Part shown: in pieces, positions 17,644-32,619 of the stretch
Numbering within the stretch: position 1 is the stretch's first letter
How the letters are laid out: every line of letters begins with the position of its first letter
Source of the DNA: Natronolimnohabitans sp. A-GB9
GTDB taxonomy: Archaea > Halobacteriota > Halobacteria > Halobacteriales > Natrialbaceae
DNA length: 64,000 nt
Direction of reading: 5' to 3'
Assembly: GCF_030848565.1 (NCBI RefSeq)
Contig: NZ_JAVDDV010000006.1
Span: 1 to 64,000, forward strand
Translations under genes and position numbers: made by a program
Notes under the pieces: generated by a model
The model's input: only the letters and a program-made list of their open reading frames with translations
What the model was told of the DNA's origin: nothing
The model's database searches: none

Positions 17644-17715
17644 GCCTGGGTAGCTTAGCGGTAAAGCGCGTCCTTGGTAAGGACGAGAGCCCGGGTTCAA
17701 ATCCCGGCCTAGGCT
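17644..17715 (+). tRNA. tRNA-Thr (GGT), integration site
   Basis: The acceptor GCCTGGG pairs with CCTAGGC (one G-T). The anticodon stem CGTCC/GGACG encloses loop TTGGTAA, giving anticodon GGT. The T-arm has GGTTCAAATCC and the discriminator is T. The last 14 bases of the gene (17702-17715) recur at 40262-40275, so the tRNA is the attachment gene of the adjoining element and remains complete. Confidence 0.95.
17702..17715 (+). other. attL core (tRNA-Thr 3' end)
   Basis: The 14-bp core TCCCGGCCTAGGCT inside the tRNA T-arm and acceptor stem is identical to attR at 40262-40275. Flanking bases differ immediately on both sides. Confidence 0.88.
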
Positions 17716-21212: not shown

Positions 21213-21758
21213 CTAGAGCAGTGAGTTGACTCGAGATCGGAGATGGTCAAACGCATCGGTCGCGACATCGATATTCGGAGCACCAGTGATAACCACTTTG
21301 CCGTTCGCGAATAGCAAGATCACAGCAGCATACTCTTCTGGACGGTAGACAAGTCCTGGAAACTGCTCTGGCTCGTATTCAGTTGACTCAAGGCCGAGAC
21401 CAATCGAGAGTGCATTCAGGTTAACATCTGTTCCAAGTTCTGCAGTACTGACGATGTTCTGGACCGAAAATCCAGTCTCTTCGGGAGTCTCAATCCCGTT
21501 CAACGCGGACAGCTTATCTAGGAACACGTCGTTCGATTCCTCGAGCTGATCGAGACTCGAAGAACCAGTGATGATGTACTTCCCACTTCGGTAGACGGTA
21601 ATCAGCGGCCCGTCTTCCTCTAGCCGAACGTAGAGGCCATGATAATTTTCCGGATTGTACTCCGTATACGGAACGTCGAGATCAGCACCGAGTTGTTCAA
21701 CGTCTAACTCGAGGCCGAGACTACCAGATCCAACAACGTTAGTGATAGTAACCATCAC
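21213..21758 (-). CDS. tbp: TATA-binding protein in a defence-type operon
   Basis: A 181-residue TBP with both direct repeats. The second repeat is canonical: VQNIVSTAELGTDVNLNALS, EYEPEQFPGLVYRPEEYAAV and LFANGKVVITG. The first repeat is diverged: ENYHGLYVRLEE replaces the usual EQFPGLVYR, and TVYRSGKYIITG replaces LIFRSGK, so tyrosines occupy positions where TBP usually has DNA-intercalating phenylalanines. It is the last gene of a minus-strand run; its ATG overlaps the helicase stop by 4 bp. Promoter selectivity may differ from chromosomal TBPs (inference). Confidence 0.9.
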   Translation of the reverse strand: MMVTITNVVGSGSLGLELDVEQLGADLDVPYTEYNPENYHGLYVRLEEDGPLITVYRSGKYIITGSSSLDQLEESNDVFLDKLSALNGIETPEETGFSVQNIVSTAELGTDVNLNALSIGLGLESTEYEPEQFPGLVYRPEEYAAVILLFANGKVVITGAPNIDVATDAFDHLRSRVNSLL

Positions 21759-24718
21759 TCTACCTCGCCGTCTGGAATGACGAACGCAGCGGACACCAAG
21801 TCTGGCTCTTCCGGTGTGACGTGTTTCTCCTCTTCGAGGCGTTCCAGTTCTTTATCACGTTTCCGACGGAGTGATTCGAGTTCTCGTTTCGCGTTTCCGA
21901 TCGGAGCAGACATATCCTTGCCCTCCTCGTCGCGTTGTTGGTACGTCTCGAGTCGGTCCTCCCATTCGCCGATTTCCTCCTCGAAGTATCGCTCTGCATG
22001 CTGGCGCTTGATCGCTATCTCACGTTCACGTTCTTCACGGGCTTCGTCTGCAAACGACTCGACTTGAGTCCATGCTTCCATCTGTGCTTCTTCATGGAGA
22101 TCGTCTACAACCGATGCCAGCCTCTCGAGACTCTGGATAGATGTCGTCTTCTCTGGAGGAAGTGTATCGACTATCTCAGGAGTACTGGTAGTGACCTCGC
22201 CATCGGTAGTGACATACAGCGGCACAAGCTTCTCAGTGACTACATCGCCTGCTCCTGAGACGTAGCCCAGCCGGTAGGTGAAGAGAATCCCTGGTGACGG
22301 CTCGTCTTCGGCAGCGACTTTCACAGCGACCTGTCCCTGTACGTGGTCGGAACTGAGACAGAATTCGATGAGCGACTGGACCAATGGATGATCGAGCGCA
22401 ATGAAGTCGACATCATCCTTGTCCATCGCGATCTGTTTCGTAAAGGTTGCACTGTCGTACTGTCCTGCTACTTGGTCACCGGATAGAACGTCGGGAACGT
22501 CCAGTTGGTAAACGTCACCGCCAGAGCGTGCAGGGCCGGGCCGAACGCCCTTGATCGTCCCGCCGAACTCGTCGAAGAACTCCCGAACGAGAACCTCGAT
22601 GTCGGCTTCGCTCACTTCGCCGTGTTGACTACGTTCGATGACCTCGAGTACCTCCTCGTCCTCGTTCGAGAGGTCGAACCGATCTCGAATGAGAAACTCG
22701 TTCTCAACGGTTTCCAAGGCTTCCTTGCGCTCCTCTATCGTCGATTCGATGTCTGCCACAACCTCGTCTGTCGGCCTTCCTTCGGCAATAGCGGCCATGA
22801 TCGTCTCGTCCAGGTCAACGTCCTCTAGGACGCGCCCCATCACGTCGGAGCGCATCCCGAGATCGGATTCGATCTGGTTAGTCTTCTCAACGAGGAGGTT
22901 GAGAATTTCGCTCTCACGAGTGTCTTTGAAGAAGAGATTACGGATCTCGACCGTGTGTTCCTGCCCGTAGCGGTGGAGTCGGCCCATACGCTGGTCGATA
23001 CGAATCGGATTCCAGGGGAGGTCGTAGTTCACCATGATGTGGGCGAACTGGAGATTGAGCCCCTCCTGGGCTGCGTCGGTCGCGAGCATCAGGTTTGCCT
23101 CTTCCTCGAACTTCTCCATCTCCCGCCGGCGTCGCTCCTGGTCTAAGTCGCCGTATACCTGTGCAATGTCGTGCTCGGGAAACACCTGATCGCGAAGGTA
23201 TTCGAGTGTGTCCGTATACTCGGTGAAGATGAGGATCTTCTCGTCGGGATCCTCATCCAGAATGCGGTCGACGAACTTGCGAAGTAGTTGTGCCTTCGAG
23301 TCAGTTTCTATGGCTTTGGCCTGTTGCCAGAGCTGTTTAACCCGGTCTAGTTCTTCCTGTATTTGCGACTGATTCAGGGTGATTGTAACAGTTTCAAGGG
23401 CCTCTTCGACTCGAGAGCGTTCGGCTTCAGTCAACGTCTCGGGTTCGGTGCTGTACCGCGGGATGAGTTCCTGAACGTCGTCGGGAAGTTCCTCGGCAAC
23501 GCTATCGTTCTGGATCGCCCGCATACGGTTCTCCAAGGATTTTCTGATCGCGTGGACGCTCGAGACCAGCCGCTTTTGGTAGATAACCATCGTGAAACCG
23601 GCGGCTTGGTTCTCCTCCTGCTGAGCCAGGTTGTAGTACTCGCGGATGTACTCGGTGACATCGTCGTAGAGCTGCTCCTCTGCATCGGACATCCCGACGC
23701 CTAAGGCCTCGATATTCTTCTCGGGGAACATCCGCGTCCCATCAGTATCGTACATCTCGTCTTTCAGCCGGCGGATCATCAGATCATCAAGGCCGTCGGG
23801 ATGGATCTGGGACTCGTGGCTGAACCGGTAGGGATCGAGCAGGCTCACGAGGAAGTAGAACTGGTCGGACTTGCCCTTGTGGGGAGTTCCAGTCAGCAAC
23901 AGGAGTGCGTCGGAGTTGTCGGCGACCGCTTCGCCCACCAGATATCGCTGCGTTCGTTCGATTGAGTCGTCACTCGATCTCCGAGCCGTTAGGTGGTGGG
24001 CCTCGTCAAAGACTGCAACATCCCACTCCGGCTCGAGGTTCTCGAGTGCATCGAGCACGGAAACCCTGTCGGCGCTGGGATCGTCGGTCGTCTGCTTCGC
24101 GAAGTCGATCGAGGTAATGATAAGATCCTCTTGTGCCCAGACGTTCTGGTTAGGATGGGACTGGCGATACGTCTCGACGGTTTCACGGTCGTAGATGACG
24201 AAGTTCCGGTCGAACTTCTCGCGCATTTCTTCCTGCCACTGGACGGTCAGCGGCGCAGGCGCGACGATGAGGACTCGATCGGCACGACCTCGAGCGATGA
24301 GCTCCTCGATAACCATACCAGCTTCGATGGTCTTCCCGAGGCCGACCTCGTCACCGATGAGATACCGGTGGTCGTAGGAGTTCAAAATCTCGTAGGCCGC
24401 CTTGACCTGATAGGGCTCGATCTCGATACGGTTGTTCGTCAGCGATAGGAAGCGGTCGTACCGGTAGGCGAGGTTGAGCCGGGTTGCCCGCTCTCGGAGG
24501 TCGTGGTGAACGGGCGAATCGGCCTGTCCGGCGGCGAGTCGGTCAACGAGCGAATCGAGTTTCTCGATATGGGGTAGACCGCTGGGGAGTTTGCGGAGCT
24601 GCCCCTCCGAGGTGTAGACATGGAGGAGGTGACCTCCATTGGGGCGTTTCTCGATTTTCGTAATTTCACCACGCCCGCCGGCGAACTTGACGCGGTTGCC
24701 AACCTCGAAGTCAGTCAT
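21755..24718 (-). CDS. SNF2-family helicase (DrmD-like)
   Basis: A 987-residue SNF2/Swi2-type translocase. A small N-terminal barrel-like domain (FEVGNRVKFAGGRGEITKIE) precedes the helicase core: motif I GDEVGLGKTIEAG (about residues 122-134), DEAH in VAVFDEAHHLT, motif III TGTPHKGKSDQF, and motif VI DQRMGRLHRYGQ. The C-terminal 350 residues contain long charged coiled coils. The size and domain order resemble DrmD of class 1 DISARM. It overlaps the methylase gene by 8 bp upstream and TBP by 4 bp downstream. It likely translocates on DNA for the partner nuclease-methylase. drmA, drmB and drmC are not present nearby. Confidence 0.85.
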   Translation of the reverse strand: MTDFEVGNRVKFAGGRGEITKIEKRPNGGHLLHVYTSEGQLRKLPSGLPHIEKLDSLVDRLAAGQADSPVHHDLRERATRLNLAYRYDRFLSLTNNRIEIEPYQVKAAYEILNSYDHRYLIGDEVGLGKTIEAGMVIEELIARGRADRVLIVAPAPLTVQWQEEMREKFDRNFVIYDRETVETYRQSHPNQNVWAQEDLIITSIDFAKQTTDDPSADRVSVLDALENLEPEWDVAVFDEAHHLTARRSSDDSIERTQRYLVGEAVADNSDALLLLTGTPHKGKSDQFYFLVSLLDPYRFSHESQIHPDGLDDLMIRRLKDEMYDTDGTRMFPEKNIEALGVGMSDAEEQLYDDVTEYIREYYNLAQQEENQAAGFTMVIYQKRLVSSVHAIRKSLENRMRAIQNDSVAEELPDDVQELIPRYSTEPETLTEAERSRVEEALETVTITLNQSQIQEELDRVKQLWQQAKAIETDSKAQLLRKFVDRILDEDPDEKILIFTEYTDTLEYLRDQVFPEHDIAQVYGDLDQERRRREMEKFEEEANLMLATDAAQEGLNLQFAHIMVNYDLPWNPIRIDQRMGRLHRYGQEHTVEIRNLFFKDTRESEILNLLVEKTNQIESDLGMRSDVMGRVLEDVDLDETIMAAIAEGRPTDEVVADIESTIEERKEALETVENEFLIRDRFDLSNEDEEVLEVIERSQHGEVSEADIEVLVREFFDEFGGTIKGVRPGPARSGGDVYQLDVPDVLSGDQVAGQYDSATFTKQIAMDKDDVDFIALDHPLVQSLIEFCLSSDHVQGQVAVKVAAEDEPSPGILFTYRLGYVSGAGDVVTEKLVPLYVTTDGEVTTSTPEIVDTLPPEKTTSIQSLERLASVVDDLHEEAQMEAWTQVESFADEAREEREREIAIKRQHAERYFEEEIGEWEDRLETYQQRDEEGKDMSAPIGNAKRELESLRRKRDKELERLEEEKHVTPEEPDLVSAAFVIPDGEVE

Positions 24719-27700
24719 CTTTTACTGCAGACTCAACGATTTCGATTTCCTCATCAGTTAGCCCGTAGAGATCGTAGACAATTTCGTTGATCTGTTGATC
24801 GACCTTCTCGATTTTCTCTTCCAGTTCGTCGGCGCGCTTGCGGACCTTGGTGTACTGCTCCAGTCCAGTTTGAATCTCGTCGATATCAGGCAGCGTCAGG
24901 TCCTTCAGACGATCCAGCGGCGAGTTCGTCTGGGTTGCGCCCTGACGGAACCCAGCAAAGCCTTCGGCCTTCTCGACGGCGACGGGGACGAACTCACACA
25001 GTAGCGTCTCTTCGGCGTCGGAGAGTCCAATGAAAGCCATCGCCTCGTAGGTCTCGAACTCCGATTCGGTAAGTCTGTCCCATCGGTCAGTCTCACGAGG
25101 GTCGTCTTCCTCTACCTTGTAGCTGATATCCACCGACAGCACCAATCGACCGTTGTCGTCCTTGAAGAAGACGTCCTCAATGCGTAGGCCATCGTACTCA
25201 TCCGTTGTCTTGGTCAGTGGTGTGTTCGCAACGCCCTCGAGTGGCATCTGCAGGTCTGCTAGGGTGCCACCTGTTTTCGACTCGGGCAGTTCGTCAGTTG
25301 GGATTCCAAGGTAGTCGAACAGGTTGAGGTTGAGGTTAGTCCTTTGATTTTTAAGATCGGATATTCTTTTCGCAAGCTCCTGTAGGCTTTCATCAGTTTC
25401 CGAATCTACCTCGCTCAAATTTGGAGCAATAGGCATATCATCAAGACTCTCTTGTGTAGTGTAGCCGGTTCTAGACCGCTGTTCTGTCTGCCAGTACTCG
25501 GATACTCTCGAATTTAATATTGCTGTAAGTCGGTAAAGATCTACTTCTGAATCAAGAGGTTTGAGTAGAGTAATATCACGCCGTTCGTAGTATTCTTGAT
25601 CCTCTACTGCATATGGCTGCCAATCATTTCCCCAGTTAGAATAGACTATCTTGGGTGTCTCGAATAGCTGCTTATTCCGTGGCCACTGCAGACTGTACCA
25701 GCTTATTTTATCATTTTTGACTTCTCTCCTATCCTCTAACTTGGACCTATATCGATTAAGGTGCTTCTCGATTTGCGGATATTGGTCGATGTCTACACTT
25801 GATGTCACATAGAGAACATATAGGTTGTCGGGATAGCCGATATGGTATTTGGATATGTCCGAGTTGCTATATGCTGGCTTAAGCAACTGGTGGTCTTCAC
25901 TAATCCCAATACGTTCTAAGTCATCATCATCTAAGAGAAACACGCCTTCTCCAATTTCAACATCTTCATTTTCGTAGTCTTCGTACGATTGTTTAGTTAC
26001 TTTATCTGGGTTAGGGACGATACCTTGTTTAGATTCAAGAAAATCAGAGAAGGTCTGTCCGGTATCTGGTAATTCTAATGAACCTTTTGCTAGTCCCTTT
26101 ATACCGTACCATTCGCTACCATCAGAAGGTAGATCGAATTCTTCATAATTATATGTCTCTTGGTAAAATAGGTCTTTTTCTCCTAGTAGTGACTCCGCTA
26201 CAGCGTTGTCTCCATACTTGTCTGAACAAATATACGAAAACGTGATATTCTCGGATCCAGAGTTATCGAATTTATAGATGAGGTTTTCCTGACCGGGTGC
26301 CTGATTGAATACTGTGAACCCATCGAACTCAAGAATTTCTCTAATGCTCGTCCTCTTTGCAATTTCATTACGGAGATTTTCTGCGCTATTAGCTTCAGGC
26401 CAATAGGATGTAGTAATCATAGATGACGTTCCAGAGCTATTGGATAGTTTAATACCTAATAATACGAAGAAATATAGCATATCCATCCGTCCTTGATAGC
26501 ATTCCTTGACGATCGAACAGTTCTTTAGAAGCTCAAATGTCTCTTTTCTTTCTTTTTCTCCCACGTACGGTGGATTCCCAATTACCGCGTCGAATCCGCT
26601 TTCCTCTTTGATCTCCCCGTCCTGCTGGTAGAACGCAATCGGGAACTCAAGTTCCCAGTGGAAAAAGTTCTGGTTTTTGGCCATCGCCTGCGCAGAACAA
26701 TACCAGTCCTGATCTTCGATGTCAATCCACGAGTCGTCACGTAGTGCCTCAGCCATGCGCTCGTAAGCGTCGTCTGGAACGTCAAGGCCGGACTGTTCGG
26801 CAGTATGGACATTTGCCATGGCGATGAGATGCTGGTATAGCGGGTCATCGCGCACCTGTTCATAGACTGCCTCCATCTCCTTGATATCGTCCAATGTCTC
26901 GTTGTCGATGGCGAGCAGGTCCTCGAACTGATCGGTGACGTGCTCCAACGCCTGCCGGCGCGTTCGGTCGAACGACTCTTGCAGGGTTAGCTGTCCTTCT
27001 TCGATGTCGGCGTCAGGGTCGCCGTTGTCCAGTACAGTCTCGATGTCGCTGCCCACAAGCGAGTTGCCAGCCTTGAGGTGGTGATCGAGGAACGCGAGCG
27101 GCTGCTCGGCGGCGAGCGTCCGCAGCCAAAGCGATACCTTAGCCAATTCGACAGCGAGCGGGTTCAGATCGACACCGTAGATACAGCGCTGGGCAACCTG
27201 ACGGCGAGCCCAGTTGATATCGTGCTCCTCATCGACCGTCTCGATCCCCTGCTGGGCTGCCTGCTTCTCTTGAGCGTCGATGATCTCGCGAGCCAGATAG
27301 TCGATTGCGCTCGTTAGAAAGTGACCGCTCCCCATTGCCGGGTCAAGAATCTTCAACTCAAAGATACGCTCCGCGAACTCTTCCGCGAACCCGCCCTCGT
27401 CGTATGCGCTTTGGCCAGCGAGATCCATCCGGATATCTTCGACGATCGGCCCCAGCGTGTTCTCAACGATGTACTCGACGACGTACTCTGGTGTATAGTA
27501 CGATCCTGTGGCCTTCCGCTCACCGCTGTCGGTCGTCAGGTATACCTCTCCCTCCTCGACGACAACGTCGTCACCCTCGTCGGGAATCACGTACTCGCCG
27601 TCCTCGAGTGCCAGCGGCTCGTCGGCGACGTTAAGTTGGTACTCGAGCAGCCCCTCGTAGATGCTTCCAAGATGACGCACGTCCAGCGAGGAGTAATCGA

Positions 27701-28952
27701 CGAAGATTTTCCCGCCACCGTTACCGTCCTCGCTGCGCGTCAGGAGATCGATAACCTTCGCGAGATAGGCATCGCCGGCCTTATACTCGGCGAGGAACTG
27801 TGCCTCAGGACTGTCACCGGCGTCCGTATCCGTCCGAAATAGACCACCATTGTACGCTGGGATGTAGAGGTCCTCCTCCGGGATCCCTCGGGACTTACTT
27901 CCCTTGTCGATGAGCTTGAACAGCCCGTCGAGCTGGTCCCAGAGGTTATCCTGCCAATCCCGGTATGTCGGGTTCCCACTATCGAGTTCCTCAGCGACCA
28001 CCTGTTTGAGATTGTTCAGGCTGTACTGCTCCTCGTAGATCTCGTTGTCCGTGTCGAGCAGGTCACGTCCCTCTGCCTCAGCGTACAAGACGAAAATGAG
28101 CCGATACAGGTAGATGAGTGAGGAGTCATGGATTAGCTCGAGATCGTCCTCATTGAGGTCATTCTCCGGATACTGTAGGAACCCCTCAGAAAGAATCTTG
28201 ATCGCCTCGTAAATGTTGTCCTGCAGGTCTTCCCCTAGCTCCTGGGCGAAGACGTTGGACTCGCCGTAGACATCGTCGAGGAAACAGTCGCCGCTTGCGT
28301 CCTTGAGAAACGCCTCGTGGCGGAAGAAGAGGTAGAAATATTTGAAGTCCTCGAGGTCTCCGCTCTCGAGAATCGTCGCCAGATCGACCTCGTAGTAGGA
28401 GTCGAGCCGGTGGCTGGTCGGGCCGTAGTAGAGTCGCCACTTCTTCCCGTCGGTCAGGACGGCCCAGCGTGCGGGCGTCTCCTGCAGATAGACGTGGATC
28501 TGGTAGCTTGGGTTCTCGAAGTCGCGCTCATGCTTACCGCTGCCTCGCGTGTCGAGCGGGCGACCCCACCGTTTGGCGTCGGCGACGGCGACGGCGTTCT
28601 TGTAGAAGTCACCGCCTTCCTCACGGCGTTCGAAGGCATTACGGGCAGCATCATCGGATTCGAAGAAGCCGTAGTCAGGGCGCTTCTGGGTCCGGCTCGT
28701 GCTCTCCTCGACCTCAAAGGGAATCCCGAGCTTCCGGAACATCGGACGGATGAACTTCTCCTCGAGCTGGGACTCATTTCGCTTGGGAGCCGTGCTTTTC
28801 TCGCGCTCCCAGAGGTCCATGATGTCGTCGTAGGCTTCCTCGAGTTCTTCGTCGCTGACCTCATCCCATTCTTCGGTCTCGGGGAGGTGCTCGTCGAGGT
28901 AGTAGTTCGAAAACAGGTCGCGGTTCGTCCGGTAGGTGAGTGCTTGCTGCAT
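24711..28952 (-). CDS. Type IIG-like nuclease-adenine methyltransferase (Eco57I/PglX-like)
   Basis: A 1413-residue protein. The N-terminus carries a PD-(D/E)XK-like nuclease pattern: RPDYGFF (about 91-97), then AVADAKRWG (about 122-130). The middle holds a gamma-class N6-adenine methylase: SAM motif I LDPAMGSGHFL (about 536-546) and the catalytic NPPYVG (about 793-798). Target recognition and coiled coils occupy the C-terminus. From about 26570 to 25330, just after NPPY, the DNA is strikingly AT-rich compared with the rest of the gene, suggesting a swapped recognition domain. It lies 4 bp after the AbrB-like gene and overlaps the helicase gene. It probably forms a two-component restriction system with the helicase. 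Confidence 0.85.
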   Translation of the reverse strand: MQQALTYRTNRDLFSNYYLDEHLPETEEWDEVSDEELEEAYDDIMDLWEREKSTAPKRNESQLEEKFIRPMFRKLGIPFEVEESTSRTQKRPDYGFFESDDAARNAFERREEGGDFYKNAVAVADAKRWGRPLDTRGSGKHERDFENPSYQIHVYLQETPARWAVLTDGKKWRLYYGPTSHRLDSYYEVDLATILESGDLEDFKYFYLFFRHEAFLKDASGDCFLDDVYGESNVFAQELGEDLQDNIYEAIKILSEGFLQYPENDLNEDDLELIHDSSLIYLYRLIFVLYAEAEGRDLLDTDNEIYEEQYSLNNLKQVVAEELDSGNPTYRDWQDNLWDQLDGLFKLIDKGSKSRGIPEEDLYIPAYNGGLFRTDTDAGDSPEAQFLAEYKAGDAYLAKVIDLLTRSEDGNGGGKIFVDYSSLDVRHLGSIYEGLLEYQLNVADEPLALEDGEYVIPDEGDDVVVEEGEVYLTTDSGERKATGSYYTPEYVVEYIVENTLGPIVEDIRMDLAGQSAYDEGGFAEEFAERIFELKILDPAMGSGHFLTSAIDYLAREIIDAQEKQAAQQGIETVDEEHDINWARRQVAQRCIYGVDLNPLAVELAKVSLWLRTLAAEQPLAFLDHHLKAGNSLVGSDIETVLDNGDPDADIEEGQLTLQESFDRTRRQALEHVTDQFEDLLAIDNETLDDIKEMEAVYEQVRDDPLYQHLIAMANVHTAEQSGLDVPDDAYERMAEALRDDSWIDIEDQDWYCSAQAMAKNQNFFHWELEFPIAFYQQDGEIKEESGFDAVIGNPPYVGEKERKETFELLKNCSIVKECYQGRMDMLYFFVLLGIKLSNSSGTSSMITTSYWPEANSAENLRNEIAKRTSIREILEFDGFTVFNQAPGQENLIYKFDNSGSENITFSYICSDKYGDNAVAESLLGEKDLFYQETYNYEEFDLPSDGSEWYGIKGLAKGSLELPDTGQTFSDFLESKQGIVPNPDKVTKQSYEDYENEDVEIGEGVFLLDDDDLERIGISEDHQLLKPAYSNSDISKYHIGYPDNLYVLYVTSSVDIDQYPQIEKHLNRYRSKLEDRREVKNDKISWYSLQWPRNKQLFETPKIVYSNWGNDWQPYAVEDQEYYERRDITLLKPLDSEVDLYRLTAILNSRVSEYWQTEQRSRTGYTTQESLDDMPIAPNLSEVDSETDESLQELAKRISDLKNQRTNLNLNLFDYLGIPTDELPESKTGGTLADLQMPLEGVANTPLTKTTDEYDGLRIEDVFFKDDNGRLVLSVDISYKVEEDDPRETDRWDRLTESEFETYEAMAFIGLSDAEETLLCEFVPVAVEKAEGFAGFRQGATQTNSPLDRLKDLTLPDIDEIQTGLEQYTKVRKRADELEEKIEKVDQQINEIVYDLYGLTDEEIEIVESAVKDD

Positions 28953-28955
28953 GGA

Positions 28956-29147
28956 TTAGGCTGGCGTAACGATGAGAAATTCCTCTGCGTCCTTACTCTC
29001 GATCACAGCTCGGGCGATCGCCTTAGCGTCGACGACCTCGACGTCGACCGCGTCACCGATATCGACGCCGAGTTTCTCCAGTTCGTCCCCGGAGACGTTG
29101 ATCCGTCCGGAGTTCCCGGAATTGCGCCCGATCTGTTTCCGTGTCAT
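28956..29147 (-). CDS. AbrB/SpoVT-like DNA-binding protein
   Basis: A 63-residue swapped-hairpin AbrB-type protein (GRINVSGDELEKLGVDIGDA, VDVEVVDAKAIARAVI). It leads the minus-strand run, 4 bp before the methylase gene, so it is well placed to autoregulate the restriction operon. Antitoxin-like use is possible, but no cognate small toxin is adjacent. Confidence 0.8.
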   Translation of the reverse strand: MTRKQIGRNSGNSGRINVSGDELEKLGVDIGDAVDVEVVDAKAIARAVIESKDAEEFLIVTPA

Positions 29148-29294
29148 CGCGTATGGGCCGCGAAACTCATCGGAGATGTATAGTCTTTACTTCATCTAGG
29201 TCGCTGTCACCTTCCAGCTTTGATCGAAGGGCGGCCCGACCTCAGCTTCTAACCAGGTATTTGTCCTTCCACTGTGAACCGTGGCGTGAATGAT

Positions 29295-30626
29295 ATGACC
29301 GGAATCGTGATTTTTCCTGCTAGTCGCCAAGACGCCCATGATGACTACAAGCGATCGCTCAAGCAGGGCCATCCCCTCGAGGATCTCGAACCGTACCTGC
29401 CCGATGAAGAACTCGAGGACCTTGAGGCGACTTCGGAAGACGGACGAGCACATCTCTGGGGGAGCTCCGTTGCAGGGAAGTGGCAAAACGTCGAGCCGGG
29501 CGACATCGGATTCGTGTACCGCAAGGGAGAATTCGTCTCTCGTGGCCGGGTTCTCCTCTTGAGTGAGAACCACGAATTAGCCGAGTACCTCTGGAAGGAT
29601 GGCGTCGATCACGATCGCTGGGATGCAGAAAAGCCGTGGAAGTACCTCACGTTCCTCACCGACCTCGAGGAGATTGAGGTCGACATCGAGGAGTTCAACA
29701 ACCTCGTCGGCTACGACGAAACCTACCGACCCCAGGGATTCACGAGAGTCTCTGACAGCCGACTCGCTCGTCTCAGAGATGAGTATGAGTCGGTCGAGAC
29801 GGCACTGGCCGAGCTCACCGAAGCCGGTGAGAAAGTCCACCACGTCAATGACACCGACGACGAACAGACGACTGATCTTGCCAGCCGCCTCGAGGCAGCC
29901 AGTACCAACGGGGATGATCCCGACGAGTTCGAAAAACTCGTCGCGAAGGCGTTCACTCGACTGGGGTGTACAACCAACTGGATCGAAGGTGGCGGCGACA
30001 CGGATGTCGAGATCGAAGCGCCGCGCCATATCGTCGTCGAGGCCAAAACTCGAGGCCGTGGGACGCTCAATTCCCTCGAAGTCACCAACGTCGACAAGCA
30101 CCGACGCCAACGTGGAGCCGAGCACGCTATTGTCGTCGCCCCTGGTTTCAGCCCAAAGGTGATCGAGAACGCAACGACGAACGAGTTGACGACGATCGCC
30201 GTCGACGACCTGATCGAGCTCCTGGACCGCAGAGAGCAGTACGCCATTCCGCCCGAGCAGACCCTCGAGTTACTCACCCGGCCGGGGTCCTTCCAAGACG
30301 ACCGACTCGATCTTCTCGACGAGAATATCCAGGATCGGGTCGATGCCGGTGAGACGCTTCTGGCTGTCATCCGAGCCCTCGAACGAGCCGACGGCCTGGT
30401 CGAGACTGCGGCCGACGTCCGGTGGATCGTTGTCGGGATGCAGGACTCGGATGACGTTCCCAGTGAACGGGATGTCAAGAGTGCACTCCAACTCCTGGGC
30501 CATCCGAGCATTGGCGTCGTCGAGCAGACCGAGGAAGGATACCGGACCGTGACGAGTTACGAGAACGCCGTCGCACTCGTCCGCTCGCTCGGTGAGGTCG
30601 TCCAACCACCGAGAGAGGAAAAATAG
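29295..30626 (+). CDS. EVE-like domain fused to restriction-type nuclease
   Basis: A protein of about 443 residues. The N-terminal 150 residues look like an EVE/PUA-type modified-base reader (AHLWGSSVAGKWQNVEPGDI, then GFVYRKGEFVSRGRVLLL). A middle PD-(D/E)XK domain (about 205-300) has FEKLVAKAFTRLGC, GGGDTDVEI and HIVVEAKTRGRG, the Mrr-like D...ExK pattern. The C-terminal region is helical. Fusions of this kind are modification-dependent restriction enzymes (type IV-like). The gene is divergent from the AbrB-methylase operon. The ATG at 29295 is chosen over the in-frame GTG at 29274. Confidence 0.75.
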   Translation: MTGIVIFPASRQDAHDDYKRSLKQGHPLEDLEPYLPDEELEDLEATSEDGRAHLWGSSVAGKWQNVEPGDIGFVYRKGEFVSRGRVLLLSENHELAEYLWKDGVDHDRWDAEKPWKYLTFLTDLEEIEVDIEEFNNLVGYDETYRPQGFTRVSDSRLARLRDEYESVETALAELTEAGEKVHHVNDTDDEQTTDLASRLEAASTNGDDPDEFEKLVAKAFTRLGCTTNWIEGGGDTDVEIEAPRHIVVEAKTRGRGTLNSLEVTNVDKHRRQRGAEHAIVVAPGFSPKVIENATTNELTTIAVDDLIELLDRREQYAIPPEQTLELLTRPGSFQDDRLDLLDENIQDRVDAGETLLAVIRALERADGLVETAADVRWIVVGMQDSDDVPSERDVKSALQLLGHPSIGVVEQTEEGYRTVTSYENAVALVRSLGEVVQPPREEK

Positions 30627-32025: not shown

Positions 32026-32619
32026 CTACGTTCGCATAGCTTCACCAATACGCGCTTCAGTTGGCTCTGCCAGATACGGCTCGATAGCGGAGTAATCGGA
32101 CCAGCCGCCGATGCTCATCATGGTCCGAACGTCGACCTGGCGCTCGACGAGATGATAGGTCGCCCAGGACCGGCGGAGATCGTGCGACGAGACCGACTGC
32201 CAACGTTGGTCGCCAGTTTGCTCTGCGATGGTGTGAGCGGCTTCCTTGACCCACCGACGAACGGAGGGAGTGCTGGCGTCAACCCACGGGTCAGACAGAT
32301 CGAGGCTCCGTTCACGGCTGTACTTGTGAATATCGTCGGCAACGTCGTCAGGCATCCACGCGTCGCGTGTTTTCTTTGACCCACCTTTCGTATTCTTCCC
32401 TTGGACCTCGAAGAGCCAGATCTCTCCATCGTCAGAGTACTGCAGGTTGCTATCGCTCGGGTAGCTCACTTCCGACGCCCGGAGCCCGCACCGTCCCATC
32501 AACTGGATCGCCACCTCACGCTCCCACCCGTCTTCTCCAGCTGTTCGCTCAAGTCGGTCCAGCTCATCGGGAGAAAGCCAACACTTCGTCACGTCATCGC
32601 TGTCGTCGATACGAACCAT
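32026..32619 (-). CDS. Catalytic-domain-only tyrosine recombinase
   Basis: A 197-residue tyrosine recombinase without the usual N-terminal core-binding domain. The active-site set is visible: arginine in MGRCGLRASEV, lysine in QGKNTKGGSKK, HDLRRSW (HxxR), GGWSDY (histidine replaced by tryptophan, as in Cre) and tyrosine in AIEPYLAE. Short haloarchaeal enzymes like this are common on plasmids and viruses. It could resolve multimers or act on the adjacent array. The start at 32619 is immediately next to a set of inverted repeats. Confidence 0.85.
   Translation of the reverse strand: MVRIDDSDDVTKCWLSPDELDRLERTAGEDGWEREVAIQLMGRCGLRASEVSYPSDSNLQYSDDGEIWLFEVQGKNTKGGSKKTRDAWMPDDVADDIHKYSRERSLDLSDPWVDASTPSVRRWVKEAAHTIAEQTGDQRWQSVSSHDLRRSWATYHLVERQVDVRTMMSIGGWSDYSAIEPYLAEPTEARIGEAMRT

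Follow-up and report, generated by a model that had tools for sequence, protein, structure and literature searches.

The 64,000-nucleotide stretch of the haloarchaeon Natronolimnohabitans sp. A-GB9 considered here (contig NZ_JAVDDV010000006.1, positions 1 to 64,000; hereafter the window) contains a compact restriction-type operon whose last gene encodes a TATA-binding protein (TBP). This TBP is a member of a conserved haloarchaeal clade, the defence-associated TBPs (dTBPs), which recurs beside the adenine-methylase genes of several kinds of defence systems. The reading we favour, while regarding it as evenly balanced between right and wrong, is that dTBP serves adenine-methylase-based defence operons as a specialised initiation TBP. 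The ORFs (open reading frames) of the window place four minus-strand genes in a tight block, in the order AbrB-like, nuclease-methylase, SNF2 helicase and TBP:

21213..21758, minus strand: dTBP, 181 aa from GTG at 21758, or 180 aa from ATG at 21755
21755..24718, minus strand: SNF2/RapA-type helicase, 987 aa
24711..28952, minus strand: type IIG-like nuclease-methylase, 1413 aa
28956..29147, minus strand: AbrB-like (swapped-hairpin type) small protein, so called from motif resemblance only, the operon's first gene, 63 aa
29176..29200, minus strand: operon promoter/operator CTAGATGAAGTAAAGACTATACATC, with the TATA-like box CTATAC at 29178-29183, ~31 nt before the ATG

The original prediction, made from this DNA alone, had described four packed minus-strand genes, and all of them are found: the AbrB-like and methylase genes are separated by a 3-bp gap (28953-28955), the methylase and SNF2 genes overlap by 8 bp (24711-24718), and the SNF2 and TBP genes share a 4-bp GTGA overlap, or a 1-bp TGATG overlap if ATG 21755 is the TBP start. 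Judged from these junctions, the TBP is the last product of the operon and is translationally coupled to the helicase. The prediction had also implied that the TBP gene has no promoter of its own, and by eye none is obvious: there is no TATA-like stretch in the ~90 bases upstream of its start, and the sole promoter-like element seen in the operon lies at 29176-29200, before the AbrB-like gene.

The product of 21213-21758 is a TBP with two repeats and the saddle fold. It matches the Pfam TBP model across both repeats at 143.9 bits (cut-off 22.9), and its AlphaFold model, with a predicted local distance difference test score (pLDDT) of 90, has archaeal and eukaryotic TBPs as its best PDB matches (template-modelling scores, TM, of 0.81-0.91). 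The second repeat retains F132 and F149, while the first has Y38 and Y55 in place of Phe; because it thus lacks one of the two Phe pairs, it is to be called a TBP homologue rather than a canonical TBP. Tyrosines at these first-repeat sites had already been noticed, and they turn out to mark the whole clade: a residue comparison of 52 dTBPs with 25 canonical haloarchaeal TBPs finds the Y38/Y55 pair fixed in 52/52 of the former and F/F in 25/25 of the latter. Eleven positions in all differ fixedly between the two groups, and nine of these (11, 13, 38, 42, 51, 52, 53, 55 and 61) are in the N-terminal repeat, ahead of its long helix. The C-terminal stirrup EPEQFPG (segment 128-134) is 100% identical across both groups; its residues E128, E130 and Q131, invariant in 52/52 dTBPs, are presumably contacts with transcription factor B (TFB), by their positions in TBP-TFIIB complexes. 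Also kept are N6 and N100, which we take from TBP-DNA structures to be TATA-centre contacts, and the convex helices are variable (0.47-0.52). Structures of archaeal TBP-TFB-DNA complexes (e.g., 1ais) have the C-terminal stirrup turned toward TFB and the upstream element, with the N-terminal pair wedged into the TATA box at its downstream end. The first-repeat change is conserved and probably functional. Pairwise dN/dS among dTBPs is 0.05-0.16, indicating that the clade is under purifying selection, and for this reason dTBPs are unlikely to be dead genes.

The original prediction had suggested looking for TBP genes downstream of SNF2/Eco57I pairs in other archaea, and the arrangement does recur in other haloarchaea. 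A class-wide search of 392 haloarchaeal genomes gave three groups of SNF2 homologues: close (at least 75% identity), middle (51-61%) and distant (~37%). Among the 33 full-length SNF2 loci of the close group, 20 have an intact TBP directly downstream and 11 have none; the remaining ones carry a truncated TBP (L071) or a TBP remnant (L051). Where measured, the SNF2-TBP junction is mostly -4 bp, otherwise -8, -1 or 0, and this holds over many genera: such a recurrent junction goes well beyond chance. The full gene set is seen in Halobacterium pNRC100, in Halorubrum lacusprofundi pHLAC01 (an intact cassette, with HLAC_RS16010 as its TBP) and in plasmids of Halolamina and Halorientalis; many dTBP copies are plasmid-borne, and Halalkalicoccus has the first three operon genes without the TBP. 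All 21 of the TBPs at least 61% identical to that of the window adjoin this SNF2 or its remnant. In the middle and distant SNF2 loci examined, no TBP follows directly, though some of them (L081, L083 and L103) have one near the methylase.

Certain loci depart from this layout. In Salinigranum salinum (L213:1-6872), the BREX (bacteriophage exclusion) genes pglX-pglZ-brxL precede SNF2 remnants and a match to dTBP over its full length, and L136 and L137 resemble it in keeping the TBP with SNF2 remnants. Second TBPs that retain the N-terminal Phe pair lie between methylase and SNF2 at L066:6452-7009, L069:2821-3366 and L039:3782-4213. The copy in L039 is cut short, and those of L066 and L069 have lost the C-terminal pair (S/P), which makes them mirror images of the Tyr-Tyr/Phe-Phe TBP that lies downstream in the same operon.

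The predicted association with SNF2-methylase pairs therefore recurs, but it is not confined to them, since TBPs 50-56% identical to that of the window adjoin type I restriction-modification (R-M), type IIG and BREX genes. In type I R-M loci the TBP is either divergent from hsdM (L144, L161, L178, L180) or downstream of hsdR/hsdM (L140, L141, L149, L154, L170); type IIG methylase loci have overlapping or near junctions with it (L138, L139, L152); and one BREX locus has the order pglX-TBP-pglZ-brxL (L156). In BREX-5 loci (L159, L160, L171), pglX and a more diverged TBP (45-46%) are transcribed away from each other. All 18 of the large ORFs scanned near such TBPs or their more divergent relatives have methylase or restriction-helicase domains. 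Among the matches listed, from 79 genomes, an N6 methylase lies within 7 kb of 11/13 TBPs of at least 50% identity against 2/130 of those at 44-49%; the Fisher p of 7e-13 is nominal, because three methylase positions of window-type operons, missing from the N6_Mtase profile list, were added by hand, the lower end of the TBP list is incomplete and related loci are non-independent. What these loci share is the adenine methylase, since genes of type I R-M, type IIG and BREX systems are all accompanied by the one TBP clade. The translational lock, likewise, stands for the window and for many SNF2 loci, but is rejected as a general rule, with many dTBPs divergently transcribed or separated by short gaps; divergent TBP transcription is found in BREX-5 and in many type I loci.

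The own genome of the window has two further cases, a 971-aa methylase accompanied by a divergent TBP relative (C3, L167:4087-4638) and a TBP directly after a ~1260-aa methylase (C38, L166:1-273), and some TBP copies near methylases are degenerate. Beside a dTBP and hsdR, a 274-aa ORF (L164:5133-5957) has ~90 extra N-terminal residues before its TBP domain and is a possible fusion. A DNA pattern for the Tyr motif run over 84,980 species genomes returned 35 stretches, all in haloarchaeal records; the pattern misses known clade members, so that its absence elsewhere is no proof of restriction to haloarchaea. A viral origin of dTBP was considered and set aside, the same pattern finding no match in viral_contigs, though at least about a tenth of the known clade escapes it. 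The haloarchaeal origin of the window operon itself is evident from its relatives.

In a tree of 75 TBPs, built by a quick method and with many weak forks, 22 SNF2-downstream TBPs cluster together (SH-aLRT 96), whereas the SNF2-downstream TBPs of L055 and L155 fall within a type I-associated branch; the downstream slot has therefore been filled at least twice. The window TBP groups with a TBP of Halobacterium NRC-1 pNRC100 (L041; 22-row set, SH-aLRT 96), which is taken as tbpC from its Tyr pair and not from a locus tag. Between the window and L047, the SNF2 proteins are 93% and the TBPs 91% identical while the methylases are only 53% identical, so that the methylase was exchanged independently of the SNF2-TBP pair. 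In the comparison of L047 with L055, it is the TBPs that differ (53%), next to methylases 93% and SNF2 proteins 84% identical.

On the favoured reading, dTBP would keep the TFB-binding C-terminal stirrup and the half of the saddle that holds the upstream side of the TATA box, while its N-terminal half would be re-specified by the Tyr-Tyr pair together with seven other fixed changes in the N-terminal repeat. TFB and RNA polymerase would continue to be recruited by it, at promoters that differ in the downstream half of the TATA box or with an altered strength, and dTBP would thereby govern how strongly or when the accompanying defence genes are expressed. Such a regulator would explain the conservation on the TFB side, the re-specification of the N-terminal half, the divergently arranged gene pairs and the variety of partner systems tolerated; the divergent TBP-methylase pairs of BREX-5 and type I loci are arranged as regulators and their targets commonly are. 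A broader generalisation, which we put forward as tentative and would not expect to hold, is that one immunity-reserved TBP type is common to R-M, BREX and SNF2-methylase systems, serving a separate class of defence promoters or even sitting physically inside methylase complexes.

Upstream of the AbrB-like gene, nearly all homologues have the palindrome TAGTCTAAGTAAAGACTATAT over the TATA region at a similar distance from the ATG (L042-L077); in the window the left arm is degenerate, and in L041 no more than a portion of the right arm survives. The palindrome is probably an autoregulatory operator of the AbrB-like protein. It is present in loci with a TBP as well as in TBP-less ones (Halalkalicoccus L070, L072 and L074; L077), and the TBP is therefore not needed for the architecture of that promoter, where it would be accessory; a dependence of the AbrB-gene promoter on the TBP is not supported by this comparison. 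As a candidate dTBP target the palindrome gains no support, on account of the TBP-less loci and of a search that did not find it at other dTBP loci.

Several points weigh against dTBP as an initiation factor of defence operons. The AbrB-gene promoter is the same in loci with and without dTBP, and the lack of a TBP in 11/33 of the close homologous operons is left unexplained by a regulator. A promoter motif common to dTBP loci across the system types was not found, the palindrome being confined to the AbrB-methylase-SNF2 operon, and a comparison by eye of type I with BREX dTBP promoters gave nothing firm. Related dTBP loci are, moreover, non-independent samples. Finally, a Halobacterium NRC-1 strain deleted for tbpC showed no apparent phenotype (PMC2121645). 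The homologous operon on pNRC100 (L041:6426-12004) has its methylase split by an ISH3-like element, which would make the knock-out a weak test and may explain its silence.

The same body of evidence can be read in other ways. dTBP might be no transcription factor at all, but a subunit of the defence machinery that bends DNA or senses lesions together with the adenine methylase, SNF2, HsdR or a BREX complex. That the TBP tracks methylase genes through several system types and is co-translated with SNF2 or the methylase in many loci would fit such a role, for which the TBP domains named as parts of the TOTE/TALON systems offer a precedent (PMC12458937). We nevertheless consider it unlikely: the 11/33 close operons without a TBP show it to be dispensable and speak against an obligatory subunit, its partners differ widely, it has been swapped beneath a 93% identical methylase (L047/L055), and with the TFB-side stirrup 100% conserved and the convex helices variable (0.47-0.52) there is no evident new docking surface.

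To the notion that dTBP is a dampener, which with its weakened N-terminal half rivals canonical TBP/TFB at the TATA box of the operon or at viral promoters and so provides negative feedback or silences an invader, we give rather little credence. The last-gene position suits feedback, the operon promoter is unaltered with or without dTBP, the intact TFB surface could sequester TFB, and one half of the DNA grip is indeed altered; yet a Tyr-Tyr pair fixed in 52/52 and the other fixed changes resemble re-specification more than loss. Least credible is a decaying or selfish paralogue gathering as a passenger in plasmids and defence islands with no role in defence, which, for all the plasmid-borne copies, the degenerate ones near methylases and the earlier view of Becker et al. 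that TbpC is possibly nonfunctional (PMC4230888), is largely rejected by the dN/dS of 0.05-0.16, the invariant residues, the recurring start-stop overlaps and the methylase association (11/13 vs 2/130 among the matches listed).

The methylase of the window operon has an N-terminal PD...DxK motif, an Eco57I/MmeI-type adenine methylase domain (NPPY) and a TaqI_C-like specificity domain, with DrmMI and REase_MTase_IIG as its PADLOC matches. Its nuclease motif reads RPDYGFF...VADAKRW, and PD...DxK is kept in all 34 homologous full-length methylase ORFs read (some from duplicate loci); with a predicted PD-(D/E)xK nuclease fused to an adenine methylase, it fits the type IIG R-M enzymes. The closest PADLOC model of the SNF2 protein is BrxHII (583 bits). 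For the AbrB-like protein there is no Pfam match over threshold (sub-threshold MazE E=0.17, SymE E=0.11), and its poor AlphaFold model (pLDDT 65) does not confirm the fold; the label stems only from motif resemblance and those sub-threshold matches. Divergent from this gene is one for an Mrr_cat restriction endonuclease (29274-30626). The operon is inside a lower-GC stretch (~20-52 kb of the window) that includes an integrase gene (32026-32619) and has a tRNA-Thr gene nearby (17644-17715), and which is likely an integrated element.

Among known systems, DISARM class 1 and ARMADA cores (PMC12458937) have, like the window operon, a RapA/BrxHII-like helicase paired with a PglX/DrmMI-like methylase. 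Unlike them, the window operon adds AbrB-like and TBP genes, and its SNF2 protein, at 446.5 bits, is below the NCBIfam DrmD cut-off of 610. Neither the genes of the operon nor the larger ORFs scanned (17.8-54 kb) include drmA, drmB or drmC; there is no YprA-like helicase ORF beside the operon, and no match to pglZ or brxC/pglY among the other operon genes or the scanned flanks. Membership in DISARM, ARMADA or BREX was accordingly rejected, as the required partner genes were not found and the DrmD cut-off was not reached; true BREX loci with a dTBP do occur elsewhere. In haloarchaeal BREX type 5 and type I R-M, some loci hold a dTBP or a relative within or beside pglX/hsdM, and the annotations of these systems that were read do not name the TBP as a component. 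TOTE/TALON systems parallel the dTBP loci in having TBP-domain genes in defence operons (PMC12458937). TALON, however, is described as largely confined to Chloroflexota, with TPR-CSD and NERD genes (PMC12458937), whereas the TBPs considered here share 45-47% identity with canonical haloarchaeal TBP, are complete archaeal TBPs and occur in R-M/BREX settings.

Closest to the clade itself is the TbpC group (Becker et al. 2014, PMC4230888), which shares with dTBP the loss of the N-terminal Phe pair and the retention of the C-terminal one. The pNRC100 TBP of the homologous operon has the TbpC pattern, the other pNRC100 TBPs read being without the Tyr pair, and by its altered N-terminal pair the window TBP clade appears to match the published group. 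TbpC was considered possibly nonfunctional (PMC4230888); the dN/dS of dTBPs and their fixed residues argue against its being defunct. The words restriction, methylase and methyltransferase are absent from the text of that paper, while the dTBPs here have an invariant Tyr-Tyr pair, are under selection and are linked to methylases. The archaeal R-M and immunity surveys examined do not mention a TBP, and a search that stopped short of subscription papers found no literature tying TBP to haloarchaeal R-M.

Why haloarchaea carry so many TBPs is an old open question, and TbpC-type TBPs, formerly suspected to be dead because they lack a Phe pair and because the knock-out was silent, now appear as a conserved, selected and defence-linked factor. 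The association of these TBPs with R-M, BREX and SNF2-methylase genes points to a dedicated immunity transcription factor; if this is true, archaeal immunity employs its own general transcription factor, and TBP clades could mark new defence systems. In functional terms, dTBP, though derived from a general transcription factor, would be the archaeal counterpart of the bacterial R-M controller (C) proteins. The latter are of the helix-turn-helix kind, whereas dTBP is a TBP. The two would resemble each other as small regulators encoded with R-M genes (e.g., PMC6237814, PMC8053105), a control of timing or level being, for dTBP, what we propose.

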